64,000 nt of DNA, taken from Streptomyces turgidiscabies Car8. GTDB lineage: Bacteria > Actinomycetota > Actinomycetes > Streptomycetales > Streptomycetaceae. The position numbers and the translations under genes are program-made. Below are positions 19,159-56,804 of this stretch, piece by piece. How positions within the stretch are numbered: the first letter of the stretch is position 1; the number at the start of each line of letters is the position of its first letter. The notes under the pieces were generated by a model. That model saw nothing but the letters and a program-made list of their open reading frames with translations, had not been told where the DNA came from and did not search any database. The stretch is taken from the NCBI RefSeq assembly GCF_000331005.1, contig NZ_AEJB01000070.1:1-64000 (forward strand), read 5' to 3'.

Positions 19159-22100
19159 TCAGCGTGGCTCCTGCGCCGGCTCCGGAGTCGGCGCCGCCGT
19201 GGTCGCCGCCGTCGAGGCCGGTGGGATCAGGCCCTCCCGGTAGGCGACCGCCACCGCCTCCCCGCGGCTCGCGGCGCCCAGCTTGGCCAGGATGTTGGAG
19301 ACATGGACGCTCGCCGTCTTGCCGCTGATGAACAGTTCCTCGCCGATCCGACGGTTGCTGCGGCCGAGGGCGAGCAACCGCAGGACGTCCTGTTCACGGG
19401 CGGTGAGCGGGGCCGGAGCCGAGGCGGCGCCGGTGCCCTCTGCGGGGGAGGGGTCCGTGAGCCGGCCGCGGCGGATCAGGGCGTCCACGGCCTGGAGCAG
19501 GGGTGCGGCGCCCAGGCGCAGCGCCGTCTCCCGGGCCGCGCGAGCCTGCGTGGCCGCCTCCTCACGGCGGCCGTCCGCCAGCAGTGCCTCGGCGAACCGC
19601 CTTCGGCAGCGCGCCTGTTCGTAGACATCGCCGAAGCCGAACGCCGTGACCGCCCGCTCCCACGCCGGTGTCTCGGGACCGGCCGTCGCCCGGGCCCACT
19701 CGGCCTCGGCACGGGCCAGCCAGGCGTGTCCCTCCGGGCCCTGCGGGGATCCGTCGCGGCCGATCGCGCCCCGGGACCGGGCCAGCTCCAGCAGTTCGGC
19801 CGCCGTGTCCGTCCAGCGCGCGGTCCCCGCGTCGTCGCCGGTCCGGCGGAGCTGGACGACAGTGTCGGCGACGGCGGCCAGGGCGAGGGCGACGAGCCGG
19901 ACCGCGACCTCTGGACGCGCCCCGGCGTCGTCGGTGAGCGCCTTCACCGTGCTGTGCACGCGCTCCACGGCCGCCTCGGGGTCACCCGCCAGGGCGGCGG
20001 CGTCCGTGAGCACCACGCTCGCGACCAGCGTGGCCATCCAGTCGAACGGGCCGTCGAGGAGAGCCCAGGCGCGGTCCACGGCGCCCAGGTCACCGCGTGC
20101 CAGTGCCACGTACAGCGAGGGCCCGGCCACATAACCGGCGGCCGCGGGCAGCACCTCGGTGTCGGCCGCCGCCGCGCGGGCGCACTCGTCCCACCGGCCC
20201 AGGGTGTACAGCACCAGGGAGTGCAGATAGCGCATCTCCAGGGGGTACGGCGAGGACAGGAGGCCGGCGCGGCGGGCGCGGTCCAGGCCCTCCGAGAGCC
20301 ACGGCAGGCATTCGTCCAGCAGACCGGACTCGAAGGAGCCGATCGCCAGATTGAACAGCGCGCGCATCTCCACCGGTGTACAGCCCGCCCGCCGGGCCAG
20401 TTCCCGGGCTTCCCGGAACCGCTCGCGGGCCCCGGGAGTGCGCCGGCCCCCCGCTTCGAGACCGGCCACGGAGATCATGAGGTCGGCCTGCGCGTCGAGG
20501 GCCTGCAGCTCCTCGGCGACGGAGAGCGCCTGCCGTGCCACCCGCAGCGCTGTCTCGTTGTCGCCCATCTGCCGTGCCGCCATGACATGGGTGGCCGCCG
20601 CCCACACCCATGTCCGCGACGGAGGCTCGGCCGGGATCAGGGCGAGTGCCTCACTGCTGTACGCGAACGCCGCCGCCAGGTGGTCGATGCTCATGAGGTT
20701 GTCGGCGAGGGTATAGCGGACGCGGGCCGCGAGTTCGGTGTCCGTGTCCTGACCGACCCCGGCGAGAGCGGCCCGGGTGAGCGACACCGCGCGGTGCGAG
20801 TCCCCGGCGTGCGCGGCCGCGGCCGACGCCCGCAGCATCAGCGTCACCGTGTCCAGGCCCTCGCCCGTGGGACGGGCGCCCGCGTCCACCGCCGGCCACA
20901 TGTCGAGGGCGGCCTCCAGGTGCCGTAGCTCCTCCGCGGGCGCGCCGACGCGATGGGCGTGATCGGCCGCTTCCAGGGACGCCGTCAGCGCCTCGGCGAG
21001 GTCGTGGCTCTCCCGGTAGTGGTGGGCCCGCTCCGCCGCGCTCTCGGCCGGGCGGCCCCGCCCGGCCAGCAGCCGGGCGAAGGCCCCGTGCAGGCGCGAT
21101 CGCTCGCCCGGCAGCAGATCGGCGTAGACGGCCTCTCGGGCGAGCGCGTGCCGGAAGGAGTACGTGTCGCCCGCACCGGGGACGAGCAGCTGGCGTCCGA
21201 CCGCCTCGCGCAGCGCCGACTCCAGCTCGTCCTCCGGCAGCCGGACGGCGTCGCTCAGCAGCTCGTGCTCGACGCGCCGCCCGGCGACGGCCGCCGTACG
21301 CAGCACCTGCTGGGCCGTGTCGCTCAGTTGCTCGAAGCGGATGAGGAGAACGTCGGCGAGCCCGCTGGGTACGCCTCCCGACTCCGCGTCGGTGGCCGCG
21401 AGCAGCTCCTCCGCGTAGAACGCGTTGCCCTCGGCACGCTCGACGATCCGGCGGACGGTCATGTCCGGCAGCGGCCCCTCGCCCAGGGCCCGCACCAGCC
21501 GGGCCACCTCGGCGTCGGCCATCGGCCGCAGCTCCAGCCGCTCCACGGCGGGCAGCCGGACCAGTTCCGCGAGGAGGGGGCGCAGCGGATGGCGGCGATG
21601 GAGGTCGTCCGCGCGGTACGACGCGAACACCGCGAGCCGGTGTCCGGGCGCGCCGCCCGCGGACCCCTGGAGCACACCCCGGCTGAGCAGGAAGCGCAGC
21701 AGGTCCCGGGACGACTGGTCGGCCCAGTGCAGGTCCTCCAGGACGAGCAGCAGCGGGGCGACCTCGGTGACGGCGGCCAGCAGCCCGGCCATCCCCTCGA
21801 ACAGCCGCAGCCGCCCGCCGGCGTCCTGCACCCCGTCCTCGGCCCCGCCGCCGAGCAGCCGACCGACCACGGGATGCGCGGCGAGCGCCTCCGCGAACCG
21901 CTCGTCGGCGGCCAGTACGCCCAGGATCTCGGTGAACGGCAGATAGGGCAGCCCGACGTCACCGAGATCGACGCAGTGCCCCGTGAGCACGGTCATCCCC
22001 CGGTCCGAGGCCCGCCCGGCTGCCTCCGCCAGCACCCGCGTCTTGCCCACCCCGGCGTCCCCGGCGATGAGCACGGCACGGGCCTCACGGACACGGGCAC

Positions 22101-22176
22101 GGTCCAGCACACCGCCGAGACGGCTCAGCTCGTCGTCCCGGCCGATGAGTGGGGTGTTGTACAGGTTCTGCGGCAC
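19159..22176 (-). CDS. LAL-type LuxR family ATPase regulator
   Basis: 1005 residues starting at GTG. The N-terminal STAND/AAA ATPase has Walker A GDAGVGKT at residues 39-46 and a Walker B-like LLLVLEDLHWAD near 145. A long helical TPR-like middle follows. The C-terminal LuxR HTH contains LTAREQDVLRLLALGRSNRR and GKTASVHVSNILAKLG. Such large regulators activate carbohydrate or secondary-metabolite genes; the target here is unknown. Convergent with the ROK gene. Confidence 0.92.
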   Translation of the reverse strand: MPQNLYNTPLIGRDDELSRLGGVLDRARVREARAVLIAGDAGVGKTRVLAEAAGRASDRGMTVLTGHCVDLGDVGLPYLPFTEILGVLAADERFAEALAAHPVVGRLLGGGAEDGVQDAGGRLRLFEGMAGLLAAVTEVAPLLLVLEDLHWADQSSRDLLRFLLSRGVLQGSAGGAPGHRLAVFASYRADDLHRRHPLRPLLAELVRLPAVERLELRPMADAEVARLVRALGEGPLPDMTVRRIVERAEGNAFYAEELLAATDAESGGVPSGLADVLLIRFEQLSDTAQQVLRTAAVAGRRVEHELLSDAVRLPEDELESALREAVGRQLLVPGAGDTYSFRHALAREAVYADLLPGERSRLHGAFARLLAGRGRPAESAAERAHHYRESHDLAEALTASLEAADHAHRVGAPAEELRHLEAALDMWPAVDAGARPTGEGLDTVTLMLRASAAAAHAGDSHRAVSLTRAALAGVGQDTDTELAARVRYTLADNLMSIDHLAAAFAYSSEALALIPAEPPSRTWVWAAATHVMAARQMGDNETALRVARQALSVAEELQALDAQADLMISVAGLEAGGRRTPGARERFREARELARRAGCTPVEMRALFNLAIGSFESGLLDECLPWLSEGLDRARRAGLLSSPYPLEMRYLHSLVLYTLGRWDECARAAAADTEVLPAAAGYVAGPSLYVALARGDLGAVDRAWALLDGPFDWMATLVASVVLTDAAALAGDPEAAVERVHSTVKALTDDAGARPEVAVRLVALALAAVADTVVQLRRTGDDAGTARWTDTAAELLELARSRGAIGRDGSPQGPEGHAWLARAEAEWARATAGPETPAWERAVTAFGFGDVYEQARCRRRFAEALLADGRREEAATQARAARETALRLGAAPLLQAVDALIRRGRLTDPSPAEGTGAASAPAPLTAREQDVLRLLALGRSNRRIGEELFISGKTASVHVSNILAKLGAASRGEAVAVAYREGLIPPASTAATTAAPTPEPAQEPR

Positions 22177-22222: not shown

Positions 22223-22573
22223 TCAGCGCAGCGTCTCGGCCCAGTTCGCCGGAACGCGTCCCGCCGGCCCCGGCACGGGCTGGTCCGCCGGGTGGCTCGA
22301 CGGGGGAGCCAGGGCTGGGCCGGACTCGTACAGCTCGGACGTCTCGAAGTTCCAGAACCAGGCCTCGCCGGGCTCGTAACTGCGGATCACGGGATGGCCG
22401 GTTTCCCGGAAGTGGGCGGTGGCGTGCTTGGCGGGTGAGTCGTCGCAGCAGCCGATGTGGCCGCACTGCGCACAGCGCCGCAGATGGAACCACCAGCCGC
22501 CGTCGGCGTCGCACTCGACGCAACCCGCCCCGCTGGGCGGGACGGTGGGGTCGATTCCGGTGTCCTTGGTCAT
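22223..22573 (-). CDS. UBP-type zinc finger protein
   Basis: 116 residues comprising a stand-alone ZnF-UBP domain: CVECDADGGWWFHLRRC, CAQCGHIGCCDDS and KHATAHFRETGHPVIRSY supply the Cys/His zinc ligands. In eukaryotes this fold binds the ubiquitin C-terminus; bacterial copies have unknown ligands. Its ATG overlaps the stop of the histidine kinase gene (ATGA), so it is the third gene of a tightly coupled signalling operon. Confidence 0.92.
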   Translation of the reverse strand: MTKDTGIDPTVPPSGAGCVECDADGGWWFHLRRCAQCGHIGCCDDSPAKHATAHFRETGHPVIRSYEPGEAWFWNFETSELYESGPALAPPSSHPADQPVPGPAGRVPANWAETLR

Positions 22574-24048
22574 GAGGGCTCCTGGGCCGGGGCGGAGCCC
22601 ACGGCCGGGTCGGGGTCGGTGGCGGTGAGGGGGAGCAGGACCTGGAAGCGGGTGTCGCCGGGTACGGACTCGACCTTGAGGTCACCGTGGTGCTTGTTGA
22701 CGACGATCCGCCAGGAGATGTCGAGCCCGAGCCCCGTGCCCTCGCCGACCGGCTTGGTGGTGAAGAACGGGTCGAAGATCCGGCCGCGGATCTCCGCCGG
22801 GACTCCCGGCCCCGTGTCGCGGAACTCCACCAGCAGCCGGTCGTGCACCAGCGAGGTCCGCACGGTCAACGTGCCTTCGCCGTCCCCGCACTTGATGGCG
22901 GAGACCGCGTTGTCGATCAGGTTGGTCCACACCTGATTCAGTTCGGCCGGGTAGGCCGGAATCCTCGGCACCGAACGGTCGTAGTCCTTCACGACCTTGA
23001 CCTGTGGACCGATCTTGCCCGAGAGCATCAACAGTGTGCTGTCGAGGAGTTCGTGGACATCGGCGACCTGGTAGGGGGCGCGGTCCAGCTGCGAGTACTG
23101 CTTGGCGGCGTCGACGAGATGCGAGATACGGGTGGTGGAGTCCTCGATCTCGGACATCAACAGCTCTGTCTCGACCGTGTAGTTGAGCCACCCGATGGCA
23201 CTCTGCAGGATCTCCGGCTCGTCGACGGCCGCGTCGATCTGCTCCAGCCAGTCGACGTCGAGACCGCCCTGCACGAAGGTCGGCGCGATCTGCCAGCCGT
23301 TCTGGACACCGTGGTCGTCGAGCCAGTCGGCGAGTTCGTCCTCCCGGTCGGACGCTTCGAGCGGGCTCAGTGCCGGCGCCTTGGAGACCCGCTCGGCCGT
23401 ACGCTCCTGGAGGTCGACGAGCGCCCTGAGGTCCTCGGGCCGGAAGTGGCCCGAGGCGATCATGCCCAGCTTGTGCCGCATGTGCGCGACGCGGTCGCGC
23501 AGGGTCGACGTGGCCCGGACGGCAGCCGCAGCCGGGTTGTTGAGCTCATGGGTGAGGCCTGCGGACAACGAGCCCAGCGCCAGCAGCCGTTCGCGCTGCC
23601 CGACGGCCCGCTGAAAGGTCTGGGAACCGAGGAAGAGCCCCTCCAGGAGATGGACCGCCATCGGAAACCACTCGTGCATGAAGTTCGCGAACGATTCGGC
23701 GGGCAGGACGAAGAACCGCGTCGGCTCCGACACCCGCAACGAGTTCATGTACCGCTGTGGTTTCCCGTCCTCGAGGTACGCCTGTATGGCCCCCGCGTAC
23801 ACCCCTGGCTGGGACGTGCGGCTCACCTCGACCTCGTCGCCGCCCACCCGGCGCGACATGACGACGGTGCCCTCGATCATCACGAAGAAGCGGGCCGCCG
23901 GGTCGCCTTCGGTGAACACCGGCCCGGGGTCGAACAGTTCGACCCGCCCCTCGGCGCACAGCCTGCCGAGCTGCTCGGCGTTCAGCTTCTCGAACAGGAA
24001 CAGCGAGCTGATCTCCGCCGTGCTGCACGGCATCGGCCGGCCGCTCAC
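22570..24048 (-). CDS. Cytoplasmic histidine kinase with cyclic-nucleotide-binding domain
   Basis: 492 residues if it starts at the GTG of a GTGA overlap with the upstream gene; an ATG at 24033 is the alternative. A CNB domain (about 15-125; GPVFTEGDPAARFFVMIEG) is followed by a kinase core with the H box LSAGLTHELNNPAAAA (His near 167), N box NQVWTNLIDNAVSAIK, G1 DTGPGVP and G2 GTGLGLD. No transmembrane segment is seen. It likely senses a cyclic nucleotide or similar cytoplasmic signal and phosphorylates a receiver domain. The obvious partner is the receiver fused to the flavoenzyme encoded immediately upstream. Confidence 0.92.
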   Translation of the reverse strand: MSGRPMPCSTAEISSLFLFEKLNAEQLGRLCAEGRVELFDPGPVFTEGDPAARFFVMIEGTVVMSRRVGGDEVEVSRTSQPGVYAGAIQAYLEDGKPQRYMNSLRVSEPTRFFVLPAESFANFMHEWFPMAVHLLEGLFLGSQTFQRAVGQRERLLALGSLSAGLTHELNNPAAAAVRATSTLRDRVAHMRHKLGMIASGHFRPEDLRALVDLQERTAERVSKAPALSPLEASDREDELADWLDDHGVQNGWQIAPTFVQGGLDVDWLEQIDAAVDEPEILQSAIGWLNYTVETELLMSEIEDSTTRISHLVDAAKQYSQLDRAPYQVADVHELLDSTLLMLSGKIGPQVKVVKDYDRSVPRIPAYPAELNQVWTNLIDNAVSAIKCGDGEGTLTVRTSLVHDRLLVEFRDTGPGVPAEIRGRIFDPFFTTKPVGEGTGLGLDISWRIVVNKHHGDLKVESVPGDTRFQVLLPLTATDPDPAVGSAPAQEPS

Positions 24049-25721
24049 GACTGCTCCAGATACCGGTGTACGAGCATCACGGCCATGGCTCCCTCTCCGA
24101 CGGCGGACGCGACCCGCTTGGCGGACTCCGCGCGCGCGTCCCCGGCGACGAACACGCCGGGGATGTTGGTCTCCAGGTGGTACGGCGGCCGGTCCAGCTC
24201 CCAGTCCGCCGGTGGCCGCCCGTCGGCGGTCAGATCCGGCCCGGCGAGGATGAACCCGCGCTCGTCCCGCAGCACGGTGCCGTCCAGCCAGTCGGTCAGT
24301 GGGGCCGCGCCGATGAACACGAACAGCCACTGCGCGTCGACCAGTTCGGTCTCCCCGGTCGCCGTGTCGCGCAACGTCAGCTGTTCCAGGTGGTCGCCGC
24401 CGTGCGCGGCCTCGACGACCGTGTGGGCCCGCACCGAGATGTTCGGCGACTCGGCGATCTGCTGGATCAGGTAGTGCGACATGGAGGCGGTGAGGTCCGC
24501 TCCGCGCACCAGCAGGGTGACCGACTTGGCACCCCTGGACAGGTACATCGCCGCCTGCCCCGCCGAGTTGGCGCCGCCCACGATGTAGATGTCGTGGCCC
24601 TGGCAGGCGGCGGCCTCGGTCAGCGCCGACCCGTAGAACACCCCGCAGCCCGACAGATCGGTGGCGCCCGGCGCCTCCAGTTGCCGGTAGGACACACCGG
24701 TCGCGAGGATCACGCTGTGCGCGGCGATCGCCGACCCGTCCGCGAACCGCACGAGTCGCGCCGCGCCGCTCACCTCCAGGCCGGTCACCTCCCGCGCGGA
24801 GAGGATCTCGGCGCCGAACTTGGTGGCCTGGCGCCGCGCCCGGTCGGTGAGCTGGCCGCCGGACACCCCGTCCGGGAAGCCCAGGTAGTTCTCGATCCGC
24901 GAACTCTGCCCGGCCTGCCCGCCGGTCGCCGACCGCTCCACGAGCACCGTACGCAGCCCCTCCGAGGCTCCGTACACGGCAGCGCCCAGCCCGGCCGGTC
25001 CGCCGCCGATGACGACGAGGTCGTAGAAGTCGGCCGTCGGTGTCGTCGCCAGCCCCACCCGGGCGGCCAGCTCCGGCACCTCCGGCTCGACGAGCGCCGT
25101 ACCGTCCGCCGTGATCACCACCGGCAGCCGCTGCCCGTCCTGACCGCAGGCCGCGAGCAGCCGCTGCCCCTCGGGCTCCTCGGTGGAGTACCAGCGGTAC
25201 GGCACCTGGTTGCGGGCCAGGAACTCCCGCACGTCCGTCGAGCGCGCCGACCACCGGTGACCGACGACCTTGGTGCTCGGCACCGGCCGGAAGTCACTGC
25301 ACCGCCAGGCCGCCAGGAGATCGTCGAGCACCGGGTAGAGCTTCTCCTCCGGCGGATCCCACGGCTTGAGGAGGTAGTGGTCGAGGTCGACGACGTTGAT
25401 GGCGTCGATCGCCGCGTTCGTGTCCGCGTACGCCGTCAGGAGCACGCGGCGGGCGCCCGGATAGACGTCCAGGGCCTGTTCGAGGAACTCGATGCCGTTC
25501 ATCTGGGGCATGCGGTAGTCGGCCAGGATCACCGCCACGAGGTCACCGCGCAGCTTCAGCTCCCGCAGGGCCTCCAGCGCGGACTCGCCGGACTCCGCGC
25601 GCACGATCCGGTAGGACTCGCCGTAGCGCCGTCGCAGGTCACGGGCGACGGCACGGGACACCCCGGGGTCGTCGTCCACGGTCATGATGACGGTCCGCGC
25701 TGTGTCCGCGGCCTGTGCCAT
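24045..25721 (-). CDS. Response-regulator receiver / glutaredoxin-like / thioredoxin-reductase-like fusion
   Basis: 558 residues from the ATG at 25721 (GGGAG site). Residues 10-125 are a receiver with the acidic pocket DDD16-18, phospho-acceptor D68 in ILADYRMP, T96 and K119. Residues 150-215 look like a glutaredoxin fold (FLARNQVPYRW, LPVVITADGTALVEP) with no CxxC at the expected position. Residues 232-558 are a thioredoxin-reductase-like FAD/NAD(P)H module with GGGPAG at 239-244 and VGGANSA at 381-387. The usual CATC site reads YGSAL at 363-367, so the disulfide cysteines are missing. A phosphorylation-gated flavoprotein oxidoreductase is inferred. It is first in an operon with the kinase and zinc finger. 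Confidence 0.92.
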   Translation of the reverse strand: MAQAADTARTVIMTVDDDPGVSRAVARDLRRRYGESYRIVRAESGESALEALRELKLRGDLVAVILADYRMPQMNGIEFLEQALDVYPGARRVLLTAYADTNAAIDAINVVDLDHYLLKPWDPPEEKLYPVLDDLLAAWRCSDFRPVPSTKVVGHRWSARSTDVREFLARNQVPYRWYSTEEPEGQRLLAACGQDGQRLPVVITADGTALVEPEVPELAARVGLATTPTADFYDLVVIGGGPAGLGAAVYGASEGLRTVLVERSATGGQAGQSSRIENYLGFPDGVSGGQLTDRARRQATKFGAEILSAREVTGLEVSGAARLVRFADGSAIAAHSVILATGVSYRQLEAPGATDLSGCGVFYGSALTEAAACQGHDIYIVGGANSAGQAAMYLSRGAKSVTLLVRGADLTASMSHYLIQQIAESPNISVRAHTVVEAAHGGDHLEQLTLRDTATGETELVDAQWLFVFIGAAPLTDWLDGTVLRDERGFILAGPDLTADGRPPADWELDRPPYHLETNIPGVFVAGDARAESAKRVASAVGEGAMAVMLVHRYLEQS

Positions 25722-41687: not shown

Positions 41688-43907
41688 TCACCTCATTCGG
41701 GCCGGCGTCAGCCACACCGTGGCGAGCGGCGGCAGGGTCAGCCGGATGCCCGACGACCTGGGCTTCACCGTCCCGGGGTTGAGGATGTCACCGCCTCCGT
41801 AGTGGGCGGCATCCGTGTTGAGGACCTCCTGCCAGGCGGTGACCGGGCCGGGGACGTCGAGGCGGTACTCGCGGCGGACCACCGGCGAGAAGTTGCTGAC
41901 GGCCAGCAGGGGCACTCCTTCCGCGTCGTAACGGAGGAAGGCGAAGACGTTGTCCTCGGCGGCGTCCCCGGCCACCCACCGGAAACCGGCGGGGTCGGTG
42001 TCGCGCTGCCAGAGCGCGGGGGTGCGCCGGTAGGCGGTGTTGAGATCGCGGACGAGATCGCGGACACCCCGGTGATCGGGCTCGGCGGCGTACGTGGGGT
42101 CCAGTAGCCACCAGTCCGGCCCGACGGCCTCGGACCACTCGGAACCCTGGGCGAACTCCTGCCCCATGAACAGGAGTTGCTTGCCGGGATGGGCCCACAT
42201 GAAACCGAGGTACGCGCGGTGGTTCGCCCGTTGCTGCCACCAGTCGCCCGGCATCTTCGACACCAACGACCGCTTGCCGTGGACGACTTCGTCGTGCGAG
42301 ATGGGCAGGACGTAGTTCTCGCTGTACGCGTACACCATGGAGAACGTCATCTCGTGGTGGTGGTACCTGCGATGGACCGGCTCGTGCTGGACGTAGCCGA
42401 GCGAGTCGTGCATCCAGCCCATGTTCCATTTCAGGCCGAAGCCGAGCCCGCCACTGTCGGTGGGCCGGGTCACCCCGTCCCACGCGGTCGACTCCTCGGC
42501 GATCGTCATGACCCCCGGGACCCTCCGGTACAGGGTGGCGTTCATCTCCTGGAGGAAGGCGACCGCGTCGAGATCCTCCCGCCCGCCGTGCACGTTCGGC
42601 GTCCACTGCCCCGAATCGCGCGAGTAGTCGAGGTAGAGCATCGAGGCGACCGCGTCCACCCGCAGCCCGTCGAGGTGGAACTCCTCGCACCAGTACACGG
42701 CGTTGGCGACCAGGAAGTTGCGTACCTCGGTCCGCCCGAGGTCGAACTCGTACGTCCCCCAGTCCGGATGCTCGGCACGCCGCGAGTCACCCGGCTCGTA
42801 GAGGGGCTCCCCGTCGAACCGGGCCAGCGCCCACTCGTCCTTGGGGAAGTGCGCCGGAACCCAGTCCAACAGGACGCCGACACCGGCCCGGTGCAGCGCG
42901 TCGACCAGATACCGGAAGTCGTCGGGGGAACCCAGCCGGGCTGTCGGCGCGTAGTAGGAGGTGACCTGATACCCCCAGGACGGGCCGAAGGGGTGCTCGG
43001 CGACCGGCATGAGCTGCACATGGGTGAAGCCCAGGTCGGCCACATACGCGGGGAGCTCGTCGGCCAGCTGACGATAGGTCAGTCCTGGTCGCCAGGACGG
43101 GAGATGGACCTCGTACACGGAGAACGCCTCCTCGTGCACGGCACTTCCCGAGCGGCGTGCGAGCCACTCCTCGTCGCCCCAGTCGTAATGCGAGGCGGTG
43201 ACAATGGACGCCGTCGCGGGCGGGACCTCGGTGCGCCGGGCCATCGGGTCCGCCTTCATGACCCGGCCGCCGCCCCGGCCCACGACCTCGAACTTGTACC
43301 GCTCGCCCTCACCCACACCGGGCACGAACAGCTCCCACACCCCGGCGGCGCCGAGGGAACGCATGGGGTGGGCGGTGCCGTCCCAGCAGGTGAAGTCCCC
43401 GGCGACCCGCACGCCCTGCGCGTTCGGCGCCCAGACGGTGAAGCGGGTGCCGGTGACACCCTGGTGGGTCATCGGCTCGGCGCCCAGCGCCTTCCACAGC
43501 TCCTCGTGCCGCCCCTCCCGGATGAGATGCAGATCCAGCTCACCGAGCGAGGGCAGGAAACGGTACGGATCCCCGACCTCCGACGCGCCGCCCTCGTACG
43601 ACACCAGCAGCGTGTGGTCGGGAAGCGTCTCGGAGGTGGGGTCGAAGGGGAGTACGGCACTGAAGAACCCGTCACCGTCGTCGTCGAGCCGGTTCGGCCG
43701 CCCGTCGACCAGCACGCTCACGCCGCGCGCGAACGGGCGCAGCGCACGGAAGACGATCCCGCCGACGGGCAGGGGATGCGCGCCCAGAACGGAGTGCGGG
43801 TCGTGATGGGTGCCGGCGAGCAGACGCCGCCTGTCGTCGGGGTCCCACAGCGCGTCGGGCCTGCCCAGGGAGGGCGTGTCGGGGAGTGAGGGATCGTGCA
43901 GGGCCAC
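41688..43907 (-). CDS. glgB: 1,4-alpha-glucan branching enzyme
   Basis: 739 residues from the GTG at 43907, which follows GAGGAGG within the end of mak. It has tandem N-terminal carbohydrate-binding modules, then a GH13_9 barrel: the nucleophile D418 in [11 protein letters not shown], acid/base E471 in TIAEEST, and [11 protein letters not shown]. It introduces alpha-1,6 branches into the glucan made by GlgE. It is the last gene of the glgE-treS-mak-glgB operon, five bases after mak. Confidence 0.96.
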
Positions 43908-43912
43908 AGCGG

Positions 43913-45292
43913 TCAGCCTCCTCGGACGGCGAGTCGTTCGATCGCCGCCATCGGGACGGGGAGCCAGTCCGGGCGGTGCCTGGCCTCGTAGACGACCTCG
44001 TACACGGCGCGGTCCGTCTCGTACGCGCGCAGCAGCCCGGGGTCGCGGCGCGGGTCCCACCCGGCCCGGGCGGCGTACCCCGCGCAGTAGGCCTCCCGGC
44101 AGCGCCGGGCCCACTCGGGGTGCCACGGCAGCCGGGTGCGGGCGGCGTAGTCGAAGGAGCGCAGCATGCCGGCGATGTCCCGCACCGGTGACTGGGCGCT
44201 GCGCCGTTCCGCGAGCGGGCGGGACGGCTCGCCCTCGAAGTCGATCACGTACCAGTCGCCGTCGGCACCGCCCGTACGCAGCACCTGTCCGAGGTGCAGA
44301 TCGCCGTGGACGCGCTGCGCGGCCGGACCGGCGTCGAACCCGGCCAGGGTGTCGAACGCGGCGCGCAGCCCCCGGGCGTACGGCCGCAGCGCCGGTACGC
44401 AGTGCACGGCGGCATCGAGACGGTCGGTCATCGCAGCCGCCGTACGTCGGCTGTGCCGTCCGTCGCGGGTGTCGCAGGGGAAGGCGGTCGCGAGGGCCAG
44501 ATGGACATCGGCGGTGGCGCGGCCCAACTCGTGGGCCTCGGCGGTGAAGTCGTGCCCCGAGGCGAGAGCGCGCAGAGCGAGGGTCCAGCCGTCGGAGGCG
44601 CCCGGAAGAAACGGCTGGAGCACTCCGAGGGTCGCGTCCTGAGGCAGATCGGTCCTGAACCAGGCGGCCGGCGCGGGTACCCGGGCACAGCCCTGCCTGG
44701 CGAGAGCGGCGGGCACCTCCAGGTCGGGATGGACACCCGGCTGGACGCGTCTGAGCACCTTCAGGATGAACGAGTCGCCGTACACGAGCGAGGAGTTGGA
44801 CTGCTCGACGTCGAGGAGACGCGGGGCGAGTCCGGCGGGCACGCTGACGGCGGGGTCGGCCTCGAAGCGCAGGGGGCCGGCCGTTCCGGGGTGACGGAGG
44901 CGCTCCAGCAGCAGTTCCGCCGCCCGGGGGTCCTGCAGCGCGTCGTAGACCAGCAGACCGGCCAGGGGCCCCTCGTGCGCGCGGCCGATGAGAGCCCGGC
45001 CGAGGCGCGGCGAGGGGCGGTCCTGGACTCGGAGGAGCAGTTGGTAGCAGTCGCCGGGCGGGGGAGGGCCGCCGGGGACGGGGAGAGCGGTGTGGCCGGT
45101 GCGGACGAGCAGGTGCAGGCAGCCCGGGAACAGCTCCGTCATCGACAACAGATCCAGGTCCGTGACGGGCCGGTCCTTGCCCGCGAACCAGCGCTGCTGC
45201 GGCAGCCACTCGCGGAGCAGCCCACCGAGCGAACTCAGCGGCTCGGCGAGGGCCGTGGTCCGGCCCGGGCGAAGAGATGCGGTCTTCGGCAT
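43913..45292 (-). CDS. mak: Maltokinase (Pep2)
   Basis: 459 residues from the ATG at 45292 (AAAGGAG site). It has an N-terminal cap with [14 protein letters not shown] and an APH-like kinase core with [11 protein letters not shown] (catalytic Asp) and [14 protein letters not shown] (metal-binding Asp). It phosphorylates maltose to alpha-maltose-1-phosphate using ATP, the substrate of GlgE. In several actinomycetes TreS and this domain are fused; here they are separate genes 28 bases apart. Confidence 0.95.
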
Positions 45293-45320
45293 GGTGACGC
45301 TCCTTTCGCGGGGCACTCGG

Positions 45321-47057
<1,737 letters not shown>

Positions 47058-47061
47058 GGTG

Positions 47062-49050
47062 TTACTGGCCTCCAGTCGAATACCGCAGCACGTGGAATAC
47101 GTGCGCGGGCGTCCTGCCCGGCTCCAGACGCACGTAGTTGGTGCGTCCCCAGCGATAGGTCTCACCGCTCAGTTCGTCACGCACCGCGAGCGAACATTCC
47201 TCGTCTTCCCGCTTGTCCAGGCCGAGTTGCGGCATGTCCAACGAGACCGTCGCCTCCTGGGTGTGGTGAGGATCGAGGTTCACGACCACCAGAACGGTGT
47301 CCTCGCCGGTGCGCTTGCTGTACGCGATCACCGCGTCGTTGTCGGTCCGGTGGAAGTGCAGGTTCCTGAGCCGGCGCAGGGCGGGGTGGCCGCGTCTGAT
47401 CCGGTTGAGGGCGGCGATGAGCGGGGCGATCGAATGCCCGTTGCGTTCGGCCGATTCCCAGTCCCTGGAGCGGAGTTGGTATTTCTCGGAGTCCAGGTAT
47501 TCTTCGCTGCTCTCGCGCAGCGGGGTGTTCTCGCACAGTTCGTAGCCGCTGTAGACGCCCCAGGTCGGGGAGAGTGTCGCGGCGAGCACGGCGCGTACCT
47601 CGAAGGCGGGGCGTCCGCCCTGCTGAAGGTACGCGTGCAGGATGTCGGGCGTGTTGACGAAGAGATTCGGGCGCATGTACGCGGCCGTGTCACCGGACAA
47701 CTCGGTCAGGTACTCGGTGAGTTCGCTCTTGCTGGTACGCCAGGTGAAGTAGGTGTACGACTGCTGGAAGCCGACCTGGGCCAGGGTGTGCATCATCGCC
47801 GGCCGGGTGAAGGCCTCCGCCAGGAAGATGACGTCGGGGTCGGTGTGGTTGATGTCCGCGATCACCTGTTCCCAGAAGACGACCGGTTTGGTGTGCGGGT
47901 TGTCGACGCGGAAGATCCGCACCCCGTGGTCCATCCAGTGCCGCAGCACCCGCACCGTCTCCGCGACCAGCCCGGGCAGGTCGGCGTCGAAGGCGATGGG
48001 GTAGATGTCCTGGTACTTCTTCGGCGGGTTCTCCGCGTAGGCGATCGTCCCGTCGGGGCGGTGATGGAACCACTGCGGGTACTTCTGCACCCAGGGGTGG
48101 TCCGGTGAGCACTGCAGCGCGAAGTCCAGCGCCACCTCGAGCCCGTGCCGGGCGGCCTCGGCGACGAAGAAGTCGAAGTCCTCCAGCGTTCCCAGATCCG
48201 GGTGGACGGCGTCGTGGCCGCCCGCTTCGGAACCGATCGCCCACGGCACCCCCACGTCCTGCGCCGACGCGGACAGGGTGTTGTTGGGGCCCTTGCGGAA
48301 GGTGTGCCCGATCGGATGGATCGGGGGCAGATAGAGGACGTCGAAGCCCATCGCGGCGATCGCCGGCAACCGCCGCGCCGCCGTCCGGAACGTGCCGTGC
48401 GGCTGCTCCGGGGTGCCCTCCGAACGGGGGAAGAACTCGTACCACGCCCCGTACAGGGCCCGCTCCCGCTCCACCACCAGCGCCAACGGCTCACTCGACG
48501 TGAGCGGTTCACGCAGCGGGTACCGGCGCAGCACCTTGTCCACCGCCGGAGTCAGGGCCGGTGCGAGACGATCCGTCACAGGGAGCGAGTCGTCGCCCAG
48601 AGCCCGTGCGGCGGCCAGTACGACAGACCGGGCCGACCGCTCCGGCACACCGGCGGCGGCACGCTCGTACAGCAGCGCGCCCTCCTCCAGCACCAGCCCC
48701 ACATCGATACCGGCCGGGATCTTGATGCCCGCGTGGTGCCGCCAGGTGCTGATCGGGTCGCCCCACGCCTCGACCCGGTAGGTCCAGTGGCCCGCCGTGT
48801 CCGGGGTGACGTCCGCGCCCCAGCGGTCGGTGCCCGGGGCCAGTTCACGCATCGGCGTCCAGGGGCCCGGCCGGCCCTCCGCGTCGCACAGCACCACGTT
48901 CGCGCCGACCGCGTCATGGCCCTCGCGGAAAACCGTCGCGGTGACCTGGAAGGTCTCTCCCGCGACGGCCTTCGCCGGGCGTCTGCCGCTTTCGACGGCC
49001 GGGCGCACATCCCGCACCGGGATGCGGCCGATGGCCGGGGTCGGGCTCAT
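47062..49050 (-). CDS. glgE: Alpha-1,4-glucan:maltose-1-phosphate maltosyltransferase (Pep1)
   Basis: 662 residues from the ATG at 49050 (AGAGGTGAG site). GH13_3 features are an N-terminal beta domain ([20 protein letters not shown]), [20 protein letters not shown], the nucleophile D383 in [12 protein letters not shown], acid/base E412 in FLAEAFTRP, and [14 protein letters not shown]. It transfers maltose from maltose-1-phosphate to the growing glucan. It is first in the operon. The plasmid-free pathway trehalose to maltose to maltose-1-phosphate to branched glucan is complete here. Confidence 0.96.
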
Positions 49051-49103
49051 GGGTCTCACCTCTGGGGTGTGGGGTCGGGGTCGACGGGGGGCCGTGGGCG
49101 GTG

Positions 49104-49400
49104 CTATCCGCCCGCCGTGGAGCGCTGCACGGCCGGGGGCGTATGCCCGGTGAAGCGGTCCGCGTGGGCCCATCCGGCCTGCTCCCGGAGATAGGCGACC
49201 AGGCTGGTACGGAGATAGCGCTCGGCGGCGTGCACGGCCTCCCGCGCACAGCGCTTCCCCATCAGCACGCACAGGGTGTAGCCCGAGTCCTCGAAACTGT
49301 CCCGCGCCGAACGGTCGGACGGGGCCGCGAGCATGACGCGCTCCCACTCCCGGTACCTGTTCAGCTGTCGGGCGACCTCGGCTTTGGCGGGCAACAGCAT
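49104..49400 (-). CDS. DUF5133 protein
   Basis: 98 residues, mostly helical, matching the Streptomyces DUF5133 pattern: MLLPAKAEVARQLNRYREWE, SGYTLCVLMGKRCAREAV and AAERYLR. Function unknown. It lies 53 bases upstream of glgE on the same strand and may share its promoter region. Confidence 0.85.
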   Translation of the reverse strand: MLLPAKAEVARQLNRYREWERVMLAAPSDRSARDSFEDSGYTLCVLMGKRCAREAVHAAERYLRTSLVAYLREQAGWAHADRFTGHTPPAVQRSTAGG

Positions 49401-49647
49401 GGTGCTGGTCCCCTTCCTCGTGACTCACTGCTTCTACGGCGAGACCTTCACTCATGGTGCACGCGCGACGACCCAGCGTCCTGTTGGATTTTCAACCACC
49501 GGGAGTTCCGCTCGTGTTGCACGAATGGACTAGCGCTCCCACTCTGGGAGGTGACTCAGAAGCGAACAGTGCTCACGCTTCGCGCTCGGGGCCCTGCCCC
49601 GCAGAGCGTGAGGAACGTGGGTCCGCCGCCGTGAGGAGCCAACGACG

Positions 49648-55570: not shown

Positions 55571-55588
55571 CAGGTGTGATGCGTGCTC
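55571..55588. repeat. IS left terminal inverted repeat
   Basis: CAGGTGTGATGCGTGCTC; it runs into the stop codon of the transposase. The partner is at 56897-56914 with one mismatch at the fifth base. Confidence 0.88.
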
Positions 55589-56804
55589 ATCCGGTGAGAC
55601 CGAGTTCGCGTAGGGCGTCGGCGGGGTGGTTGCGGTAGTGGTCGTGGGCGGCGGCGTTGTTGGTCCAGCCGGCGAGGTGGGCGAGGCTGATCGCCAGGCT
55701 GCGGAAGGTCGCGAGGGCCCGGGGCAGGCTGCCGGTGCGGGCCCGGCAGGCATCCTCGCCGAAGGTCACGTCTCGCACGAAGTGCTGGGCCTCGATGGAC
55801 CACTGATCACGGGTGCAGCGGGCCAGGGTGGCGGCGTCGGCTGTGGCAACGGGTGCGGTGGTGATGCCGAGTTCGGCCACGGCGTGCTGCTTTCCGTCGC
55901 CGCGGCCGGTGGTGTACCGCTCGGTCAGCAGGGCCTGGGTGGCGTGCGGGAAGGCGACCTGGCCGTCGGCGAGGGGCTGGACGCGCACGATGCGGATCTC
56001 GTGACGGCCGCTGTTCCTCTCCTCGGTGCGGTGCACCGTGATGGCCGTGTTGGTGTACTCGTCCCGGTCGAGGGCGTCGAGTTGAGCGAAGAGGGCGGGC
56101 CGGTTCTCCTTGACCGGGAAGAGGCCGAAGGCGCCCCGTCGGTGCAGGTAGCGGGCGTGGGCGGCGACGGTGTGCAGGGCGTCCGCGGTCACGATCATGC
56201 CGGAGATGTCGGTGACCAGGTCCAGGGCCGGGGCGAAGTGGAGAGTCTCATGCGGCTTGTGCCGCATTTCGCGCTGGGCGAGCATCACGCCCGGATCGGT
56301 GAGGTAGACGCCCAGCAGGTGCAGTTGATGCCCGTCGCTGTCGCGGGCGCCACGGACCGTCTTGCCGTCCGCTGCGAGCGAGAGCACGGGCATCTCGCCG
56401 GCGATGCCGGCCGGCGGGTCGGCTGTGTGCGCCTGGATGAACGTGCCGACGGCCGCATCCAGCGCGTCCAGACGGGCGAGCGCGCGGGTGAGAGTGGTGG
56501 CCACCGGAAGCCGGTCCGGGTCTGCGCCGGGGACTTCGAGGGCCGCCAGGACGCCGGCGCCCTGGCCACGCGCCCAGCGGATCACGCCGCGCACCGAGCA
56601 CACCCCGCACAGCATGGCGCAGGCGACCAGGCCGAGCAGCATCGGCCAGGCGTGTGTGACCAGATGCGGAGTCCTGGGGTCGGGCACCGTGCGGACGGCC
56701 TCCAGCAGCGACGGCAGGCGTTCCGGCGCGGACAACTGGCTGGCTGCCGGGCCGAGTTCAGCGGCGAGTTGGCGCGAGGTGGGCAGGGTCGGGCAGGATG
56801 GCAT
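55587..56804 (-). CDS. ISAs1-family DDE transposase
   Basis: 405 residues. The N-terminal DDE_Tnp_1-associated region ([15 protein letters not shown]) precedes the catalytic core. The first Asp is in [15 protein letters not shown], the second in [10 protein letters not shown] and the Glu in [20 protein letters not shown]. All three acidic residues are present and there is no internal stop, so the element may be active. It belongs to the H-repeat/ISAs1 group. Confidence 0.93.

Follow-up and report, generated by a model that had tools for sequence, protein, structure and literature searches.

A CNB histidine kinase gene overlapping that of a cysteine-less receiver-glutaredoxin-thioredoxin-reductase-like flavoprotein in Streptomyces turgidiscabies: a candidate phosphorylation-gated flavoenzyme

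Response regulators in which a receiver domain (REC) is joined to a thioredoxin reductase (TrxR) are already on record as an architecture in a census, in the part of that work available to us (PMC5847659), which bears out an earlier remark that related fusions are annotated. The only measured relative found, ATII-TrxR, is described in the accessible part of its report (PMC6544261) as a protein of 552 residues with a cyclic-nucleotide-binding (CNB) domain at residues 13-146 and bound flavin adenine dinucleotide (FAD). It was active with NADPH and NADH, preferring NADPH, and its reported kcat was 28.4 per s with thioredoxin and 5.63 per s with 5,5'-dithiobis-(2-nitrobenzoic acid) (DTNB). Two 'redox centres' were modelled at Cys206-Cys223 and Cys376-Cys467, E. 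coli proteins were stated to have been washed out during purification, the sequence was 87% identical to Cupriavidus metallidurans WP_011516654.1 and the authors called the enzyme a true thioredoxin reductase (PMC6544261). Here we discuss a three-gene operon of Streptomyces turgidiscabies Car8, located within the 64,000 nucleotides of contig NZ_AEJB01000070.1 that were analysed as a whole and are referred to as the window. It couples a CNB histidine kinase to a flavoprotein made of a receiver, a glutaredoxin (Grx)-like domain and a TrxR-like module that has lost its catalytic cysteines, followed by a small zf-UBP protein. From conserved residues and gene order, we give about an even chance to the reading that kinase and receiver form a cognate two-component pair gating an FAD/NAD(P)H flavoenzyme by phosphorylation.

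The three genes are consecutive and all lie on the minus strand. The flavoprotein gene (24045-25721) encodes 558 residues, in which Pfam recognizes Response_reg and Pyr_redox_2; the kinase gene (22570-24048, GTG start) encodes 492 residues matching cNMP_binding and HATPase_c, with HisKA under the cut-off; and the third gene (22223-22573) encodes 116 residues matching zf-UBP. Neighbouring genes overlap by four bases each, at 24045-24048 and at 22570-22573, exactly as the first-pass annotation had described, and the arrangement recurs in relatives. The overlap between receiver and kinase genes could be read at 82 of 112 kinase-bearing loci, and the one between kinase and UBP genes at 73 of the 81 kinase-bearing loci with UBP downstream. 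The closest match among the best 80 of 562 named-genome relatives is 97% identical, and the receiver-kinase arrangement is also encountered in Deinococcus, Caballeronia, Paraburkholderia and Gloeothece. Since it recurs across phyla, a chance overlap of unrelated genes is excluded. A variant was observed at L163-L166, where one REC-TrxR gene stands beside three tandem CNB histidine kinase genes. Within the S. turgidiscabies genome, the kinase has no further match at E 1e-20 and the flavoprotein occurs in a single full-length copy; after it, the best match is a canonical, CATC-containing TrxB. Because the genome encodes this separate TrxB, the flavoprotein is ruled out as the main, standard thioredoxin reductase of the cell.

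The counts given here derive from a table of 167 rows comprising the window, 80 named-genome loci, 80 loci from other genomes and 6 plasmid loci. The named-genome loci are the best 80 of the 562 relatives, 60 of them from Streptomyces. A phylum scan at E 1e-60 found relatives in 71 of 296 genomes, and 80 regions around its matches were taken; 6 of 124 matching plasmid records entered the table. The table is weighted towards close relatives and includes some paralogues that come from the same genome. At the same threshold, a class scan found relatives in 158 of 296 genomes and in 63 of 114 genera. All relatives came from searches started with the cysteine-less flavoprotein or its cysteine-less relatives; cysteine loss is thus universal only within the sample, and REC-fused reductases with CATC may exist elsewhere.

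An argument for a cognate pair comes from the receiver domain (residues ~10-133, 25323-25694, minus strand; PF00072, 54.7 bits), which carries D16, D17, D68, T96 and K119. The predicted phospho-acceptor D68 (codon 25518-25520, minus strand) is invariant in 25 of 25 aligned receivers. D17, D68, T96 and K119 are all kept in each of the 112 rows with a nearby CNB kinase, window included, and the intact D/T/K set is found in 114 rows in total. By alignment, 28 rows were called degenerate receiver-like, a call with which Pfam agrees in 11; no kinase was found near any of them within the flanks covered, which are short after some genes (278 bases for L133, less than 1.3 kb for L139 and L128), and T/S96 survives in only 2. 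As Pfam finds Response_reg in so few of them, some of these regions may have ceased to be receivers. The contrast between 112 of 112 and 0 of 28 supports the proposal of the first-pass annotation that the kinase and the receiver-flavoprotein are a likely cognate pair.

What the receiver is attached to is a reductase-like protein devoid of its usual dithiols. The Grx-like domain (residues ~150-225, 25047-25274, minus strand) has no Pfam Glutaredoxin match of its own; it was assigned from its modelled beta-alpha-beta-alpha-beta-beta-alpha fold and by alignment to the Glutaredoxin domain that Pfam detects in relative L153. Its WSARS motif, within GHRWSARST, occupies the position of the Grx CxxC, and YGSAL (residues 363-367, 24621-24635, minus strand) stands in place of CATC, so that both losses noticed initially are confirmed. 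Across the table, neither site has a CxxC in 159 of 167 rows, namely all 142 with an N-terminus in the receiver range and 17 of the 25 without; among the 159, the Grx site is unreadable in two, the fragment L135 that has no Grx part and the gapped L195. At the CATC position, most rows read Y-G followed by A or S. L098 carries a CxxC elsewhere in the module, and stand-alone CxxC-less forms also exist (L204, L205). Cysteine loss therefore holds for every receiver-range protein of the sample, but it does not extend to the whole family: the remaining 8 rows, all stand-alone Grx-TrxR fusions, retain both CATC and a Grx CxxC (CPDC, or CGDC in one).

The possibility that functional cysteines elsewhere in the fold act as the redox pair receives little support. 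No cysteine column is common to the cysteine-less rows; the best conserved residue, C373, is present in 103 of 113 close rows vs 4 of 34 others, and 9 of the 112 kinase-bearing proteins have no cysteine at any of columns 192, 353, 359 and 373. These counts bear on a rival explanation, according to which the flavoprotein is a real disulfide or thioredoxin reductase working without CxxC, either by direct transfer from flavin to disulfide or through scattered cysteines. It draws on ATII-TrxR, with the turnover numbers and the removal of host proteins reported for it. A CNB-TrxR of C. metallidurans (L213, 3437-5263, CNB part identified by reading) has no CATC: VYYWASPVEAKLC. Counted from the start that yields 546 residues, its Cys187, Cys204 and Cys357 correspond to ATII Cys206, Cys223 and Cys376 with one common offset of 19; no other offset within 60 aligns more than two cysteines. 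Because three of the four cysteines match in this way, ATII-TrxR is most likely a CxxC-less CNB relative, as judged by cysteine spacing against L213, which is not proven to be WP_011516654.1. Its reported activity supports a working flavoenzyme and speaks against the earlier statement that the protein is not a disulfide reductase, a likely cysteine-less relative having been reported to reduce DTNB and thioredoxin (PMC6544261). However, ATII Cys467 is left unmatched at offset 19, and the available part of the report describes neither a test for carried-over host TrxR nor cysteine mutants (PMC6544261). Together with the missing common cysteine column, these points leave a CxxC-less disulfide reductase a rather unlikely explanation.

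The cofactor sites of the TrxR-like module (residues 231-556, 24054-25031, minus strand; PF07992, 106.2 bits; VIA-align Z up to 30 in a comparison covering residues 228-558) tell a more nuanced story. The FAD and dinucleotide glycines, N278, D528, NSAGQAA, MSxYL and KRVA...G are near invariant across the rows. In thioredoxin reductases, the 2'-phosphate of NADPH is recognized by the motif HRRxxxR; aligned with the genome's own TrxB, the module shows a single corresponding arginine, R406, with Gly, Ala or Ser at the following position in most rows. The initial description of intact FAD and NAD motifs thus stands for FAD and was too strong for NAD. The loss of part of the NADPH site and of both catalytic CxxC would suit a pseudoenzyme, in which FAD and NAD(P) merely shape a scaffold binding another protein without electron transfer. 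This explanation is improbable in our opinion, since near invariance of the glycines, N278, D528, NSAGQAA and MSxYL over deep divergence rather suits a selected active site.

An AlphaFold2 model of the flavoprotein, built from 25 sequences (mean predicted local distance difference test (pLDDT) score 70), was compared with known conformers. It superposes on flavin-reducing forms with 2.7 Å over 296 residues (5mh4) and 3.1 Å over 304 (1f6m), vs 7.3 Å over 293 (5mjk) and 7.4 Å over 302 (1tde) for flavin-oxidising forms of the same enzymes; we take 1f6m and 1tde to represent the flavin-reducing and flavin-oxidising conformers, respectively. This single model of moderate quality suits an enzyme where NAD(P)H would meet the flavin directly.

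A tree was built on the module alone for 107 of 108 rows, the fragment L135 being left out. The cysteine-less rows form a single clade (SH-like approximate likelihood ratio test, 100), within which the N-terminal input varies: a CNB domain, a degenerate receiver-like region near which no kinase was found, or an intact receiver next to a CNB kinase. Support is 97 for the CNB clade, with one CNB row (L151) falling outside, 97 for a clade that includes 26 of the 28 degenerate rows, and 92 (unstarred) for the intact-receiver clade. The kinase label needs 2 changes on this tree and the UBP label 12. In four genomes where the match covered only residues ~197-556 (G422, G398, G549 and G488), a domain swap was considered and rejected: REC and Grx-like parts are retained, the latter with an insert, and the kinase is next door. 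The inserts of G422, G398 and G488 (L208 4216-6165, L209 4853-6799, L211 1528-5946) are low-complexity segments located before the LPVV strand of the Grx-like domain, Ser/Asn/Gly-rich or Ala/Asp-rich and of variable length.

The kinase begins with a CNB-like sensor (23614-24003, minus strand) that narrowly passes Pfam (cNMP_binding, 31.0 bits vs a cut-off of 27.5). Binding of a cyclic nucleotide involves a phosphate-binding cassette with Glu and Arg, GE...PR; it is present in the kinases of L116, L117, L119, L121 and L122, and the window kinase reads YAGA..QRY at that place. In most CNB-fused flavoproteins, GE is kept and PR is not. The name of CNB histidine kinase proposed initially thus holds as a domain assignment, but the cyclic-nucleotide cassette is lost; a cyclic-nucleotide sensor by name was rejected, the cassette being degenerate in the clade of the window, and the ligand should not be presumed to be a cyclic nucleotide. 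Downstream, the predicted phospho-donor H167 (codon 23548-23550, minus strand) is present in all 14 kinases aligned, the HisKA match stays at 17.3 vs 26.9 bits, and the HATPase_c catalytic domain (residues 368-475, 22624-22947, minus strand) scores 78.9 bits. AlphaFold2 places a helical insert of about 80 residues (199-277; 23218-23454, minus strand) between the two predicted helices of the dimerization and histidine phosphotransfer domain; pLDDT blocks reach 76-93 for residues 201-280, and the H167 region is below 50.

The third protein matches PF02148 with 49.9 bits against a cut-off of 22.7, its nearest solved structure by sequence being 2ida, which supports the UBP zinc finger recognized from the start. 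In USP5, the pocket arginine at the CGR position presumably binds the C-terminal Gly-Gly; in the HMMER alignment, a histidine is found at that position. A UBP match accompanies 58 of the 60 Streptomyces loci of the named-genome scan. Among the 52 remaining kinase-bearing rows, which include the window, 26 have one, compared with 4 of 12 CNB rows and 1 of 28 degenerate rows. In L116 (3274-4941), a CNB histidine kinase and a C-terminal zf-UBP share one reading frame. Such matches are few, one to three per genome in 20 of 21 relatives' genomes and none in the remaining one, and chance is therefore an unlikely cause of the adjacency, although it changes often on the tree. The genome of the window has a second zf-UBP match away from the operon (G000:C486:7522-7710).

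On the same strand, 46 bases past the UBP stop, begins an open reading frame (ORF) of 1005 residues for an AAA_16/LuxR-type regulator (19159-22176, minus strand). Related ORFs were found in 28 rows, window included, all of them Streptomyces loci (phmmer, E 1e-30); given this restriction, the regulator is an optional neighbour of the operon. These two neighbours provide the setting for a different explanation, in which the flavoprotein would be a redox or NAD(P)H sensor and not an enzyme. The state of its flavin would alter phosphorylation or dephosphorylation of the receiver, so that the signal enters the two-component pair and leaves it via a further partner, perhaps the UBP protein or else the LuxR-type regulator. 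The disappearance of CxxC chemistry, a UBP gene that accompanies the CNB, REC-kinase and one degenerate-REC version and is even fused to a kinase, and the closeness and recurrence of the LuxR-type ORF would all fit. The occurrence of CNB and REC inputs at one and the same N-terminal place argues instead that the module is the output, and the relative ATII-TrxR is reported to be catalytic (PMC6544261). We regard a sensor role as unlikely.

Under the phosphorylation-gated reading, the output of the two-component system would be an enzyme-like flavoprotein and not a DNA-binding protein. We infer phosphotransfer, gating, the redox chemistry, its acceptor and the role of the UBP protein as follows. 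The soluble CNB-type kinase would sense a ligand and autophosphorylate on H167, from which the phosphate would pass to D68 of the receiver. Phosphorylation would then shift the packing of the receiver and of the dead Grx-like domain on the reductase-like part, and this change would gate hydride transfer from NAD(P)H to FAD. Without flavin-proximal cysteines, the reduced flavin would probably hand its electrons to a non-thiol acceptor such as oxygen, a quinone or a partner protein, the UBP protein being a likely accessory adaptor. With those cysteines gone, what the kinase controls is probably a redox enzyme of a kind other than thioredoxin reductase.

Several observations weigh against phosphorylation gating of an active flavoenzyme. 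The two intact receivers without a kinase are L118, whose contig ends ~0.5 kb past the gene, and L130, which is placed in the degenerate clade; in addition, a kinase could be missed at L133 beyond the 278 bases covered. Of the 28 degenerate rows, 11 still have D68, and Pfam at E 0.01 detects Response_reg in 11 of the 28 and cNMP_binding in 0. Because the kinase label changes just twice, its association with the phospho-switch is essentially one evolutionary split and reflects strong conservation after one event, not repeated co-evolution. Two of the three NADPH-phosphate arginines are lost, the flavoprotein model is middling with low pLDDT at residues ~264-289 and 342-368, and it also fits 5w4c, labelled flavin-oxidising, with 4.9 Å over 308 residues. 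Finally, phosphotransfer and flavoprotein activity are predictions, and the sole measured relative is the one called a true thioredoxin reductase (PMC6544261).

The wider surroundings were also surveyed. Around 108 loci, among ORFs of at least 110 residues, a limit that does not fairly cover the short UBP gene, the largest family besides the module, the kinase and frame shadows is an ABC ATPase found at 17 loci at a median distance of 2.8 kb; Usp occurs near 5 loci. A search of PADLOC families at E 0.001 gave no match for the three operon proteins and one weak match (17 bits) for the LuxR-type neighbour, and a defence-system reading has no support from the operon proteins. Elsewhere in the window, judging from translations alone, ORFs at ~41688-49455 (minus strand) resemble a glycogen/trehalose cluster of the GlgE-pathway type and an ORF at 55587-56804 (minus strand) is transposase-like.

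Extending the phosphorylation-gated reading to the family, we tentatively suggest, with less confidence than for the operon itself, a widespread bacterial class that arose when a Grx-TrxR fusion, stripped of both dithiols, turned into an NAD(P)H-FAD electron-transfer module of new chemistry. It would be switched by ligand through a fused CNB domain or, as here, phosphorylated by a separate CNB-type kinase, with the UBP finger as a shared partner. If the kinase does gate a flavoenzyme, two-component signalling would control redox chemistry directly, without transcription. The family supplies natural controls, with intact or degenerate receivers, CNB-fused, stand-alone and both-CxxC forms. It is also widespread, as the class scan indicates. 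Some CNB-fused relatives bear the NCBI product name 'thioredoxin-disulfide reductase', although the CATC pair is missing from all 15 CNB-fused sequences inspected.

Annotation already records the architecture; the combination of a cysteine-less module, exchanged inputs and a phospho-switch tied to a kinase seems not to have been described in the sources searched. No paper on the mechanism of the operon was found in the open-access literature searched, most subscription journals lying outside its scope, and the available parts of PMC6599016, PMC4506424 and PMC5459824 hold nothing on a REC-TrxR/CNB kinase system. The accessible part of the REC-TrxR census does not touch on a mechanism, on the absence of cysteines or on any Grx-like domain, CNB kinase or UBP partner (PMC5847659).

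Compared with described enzymes, the module resembles low-molecular-weight thioredoxin reductases (TIGR01292) in fold, FAD motifs and dinucleotide glycines; unlike them, it has no CATC, has mostly lost HRRxxxR and scores 213.6 bits against a cut-off of 343.45. AhpF, the top Foldseek hit, likewise places a thioredoxin/glutaredoxin-fold part ahead of a TrxR-like module, but the AhpF model (TIGR03140) gives 159 bits against a cut-off of 502.9, and both parts of AhpF carry catalytic cysteine pairs, according to the portion of the source at hand (PMC8945050), whereas the window protein has none. TrxR-like ferredoxin/flavodoxin NADP reductases, whose FAD is stacked on by a residue from the second monomer, share a TrxR-like fold without CxxC; their matches are weaker (68.8 bits for 5xhu and 47-54 for others, vs 161 for the best TrxR), and the accessible portions of the literature on them do not mention regulatory domains. 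The eight stand-alone Grx-TrxR fusions, such as L153, follow the same Grx and TrxR order in ORFs of 401-448 residues that leave no room for REC or CNB (L153 was scanned with Pfam). Closest of all, ATII-TrxR and the CNB-TrxRs appear from their relatives' sequences to share the CxxC-less Grx-like/TrxR-like module; ATII-TrxR, reported as a thioredoxin reductase, carries its CNB domain in the same chain, whereas the operon of S. turgidiscabies combines a REC domain with a separate CNB kinase.

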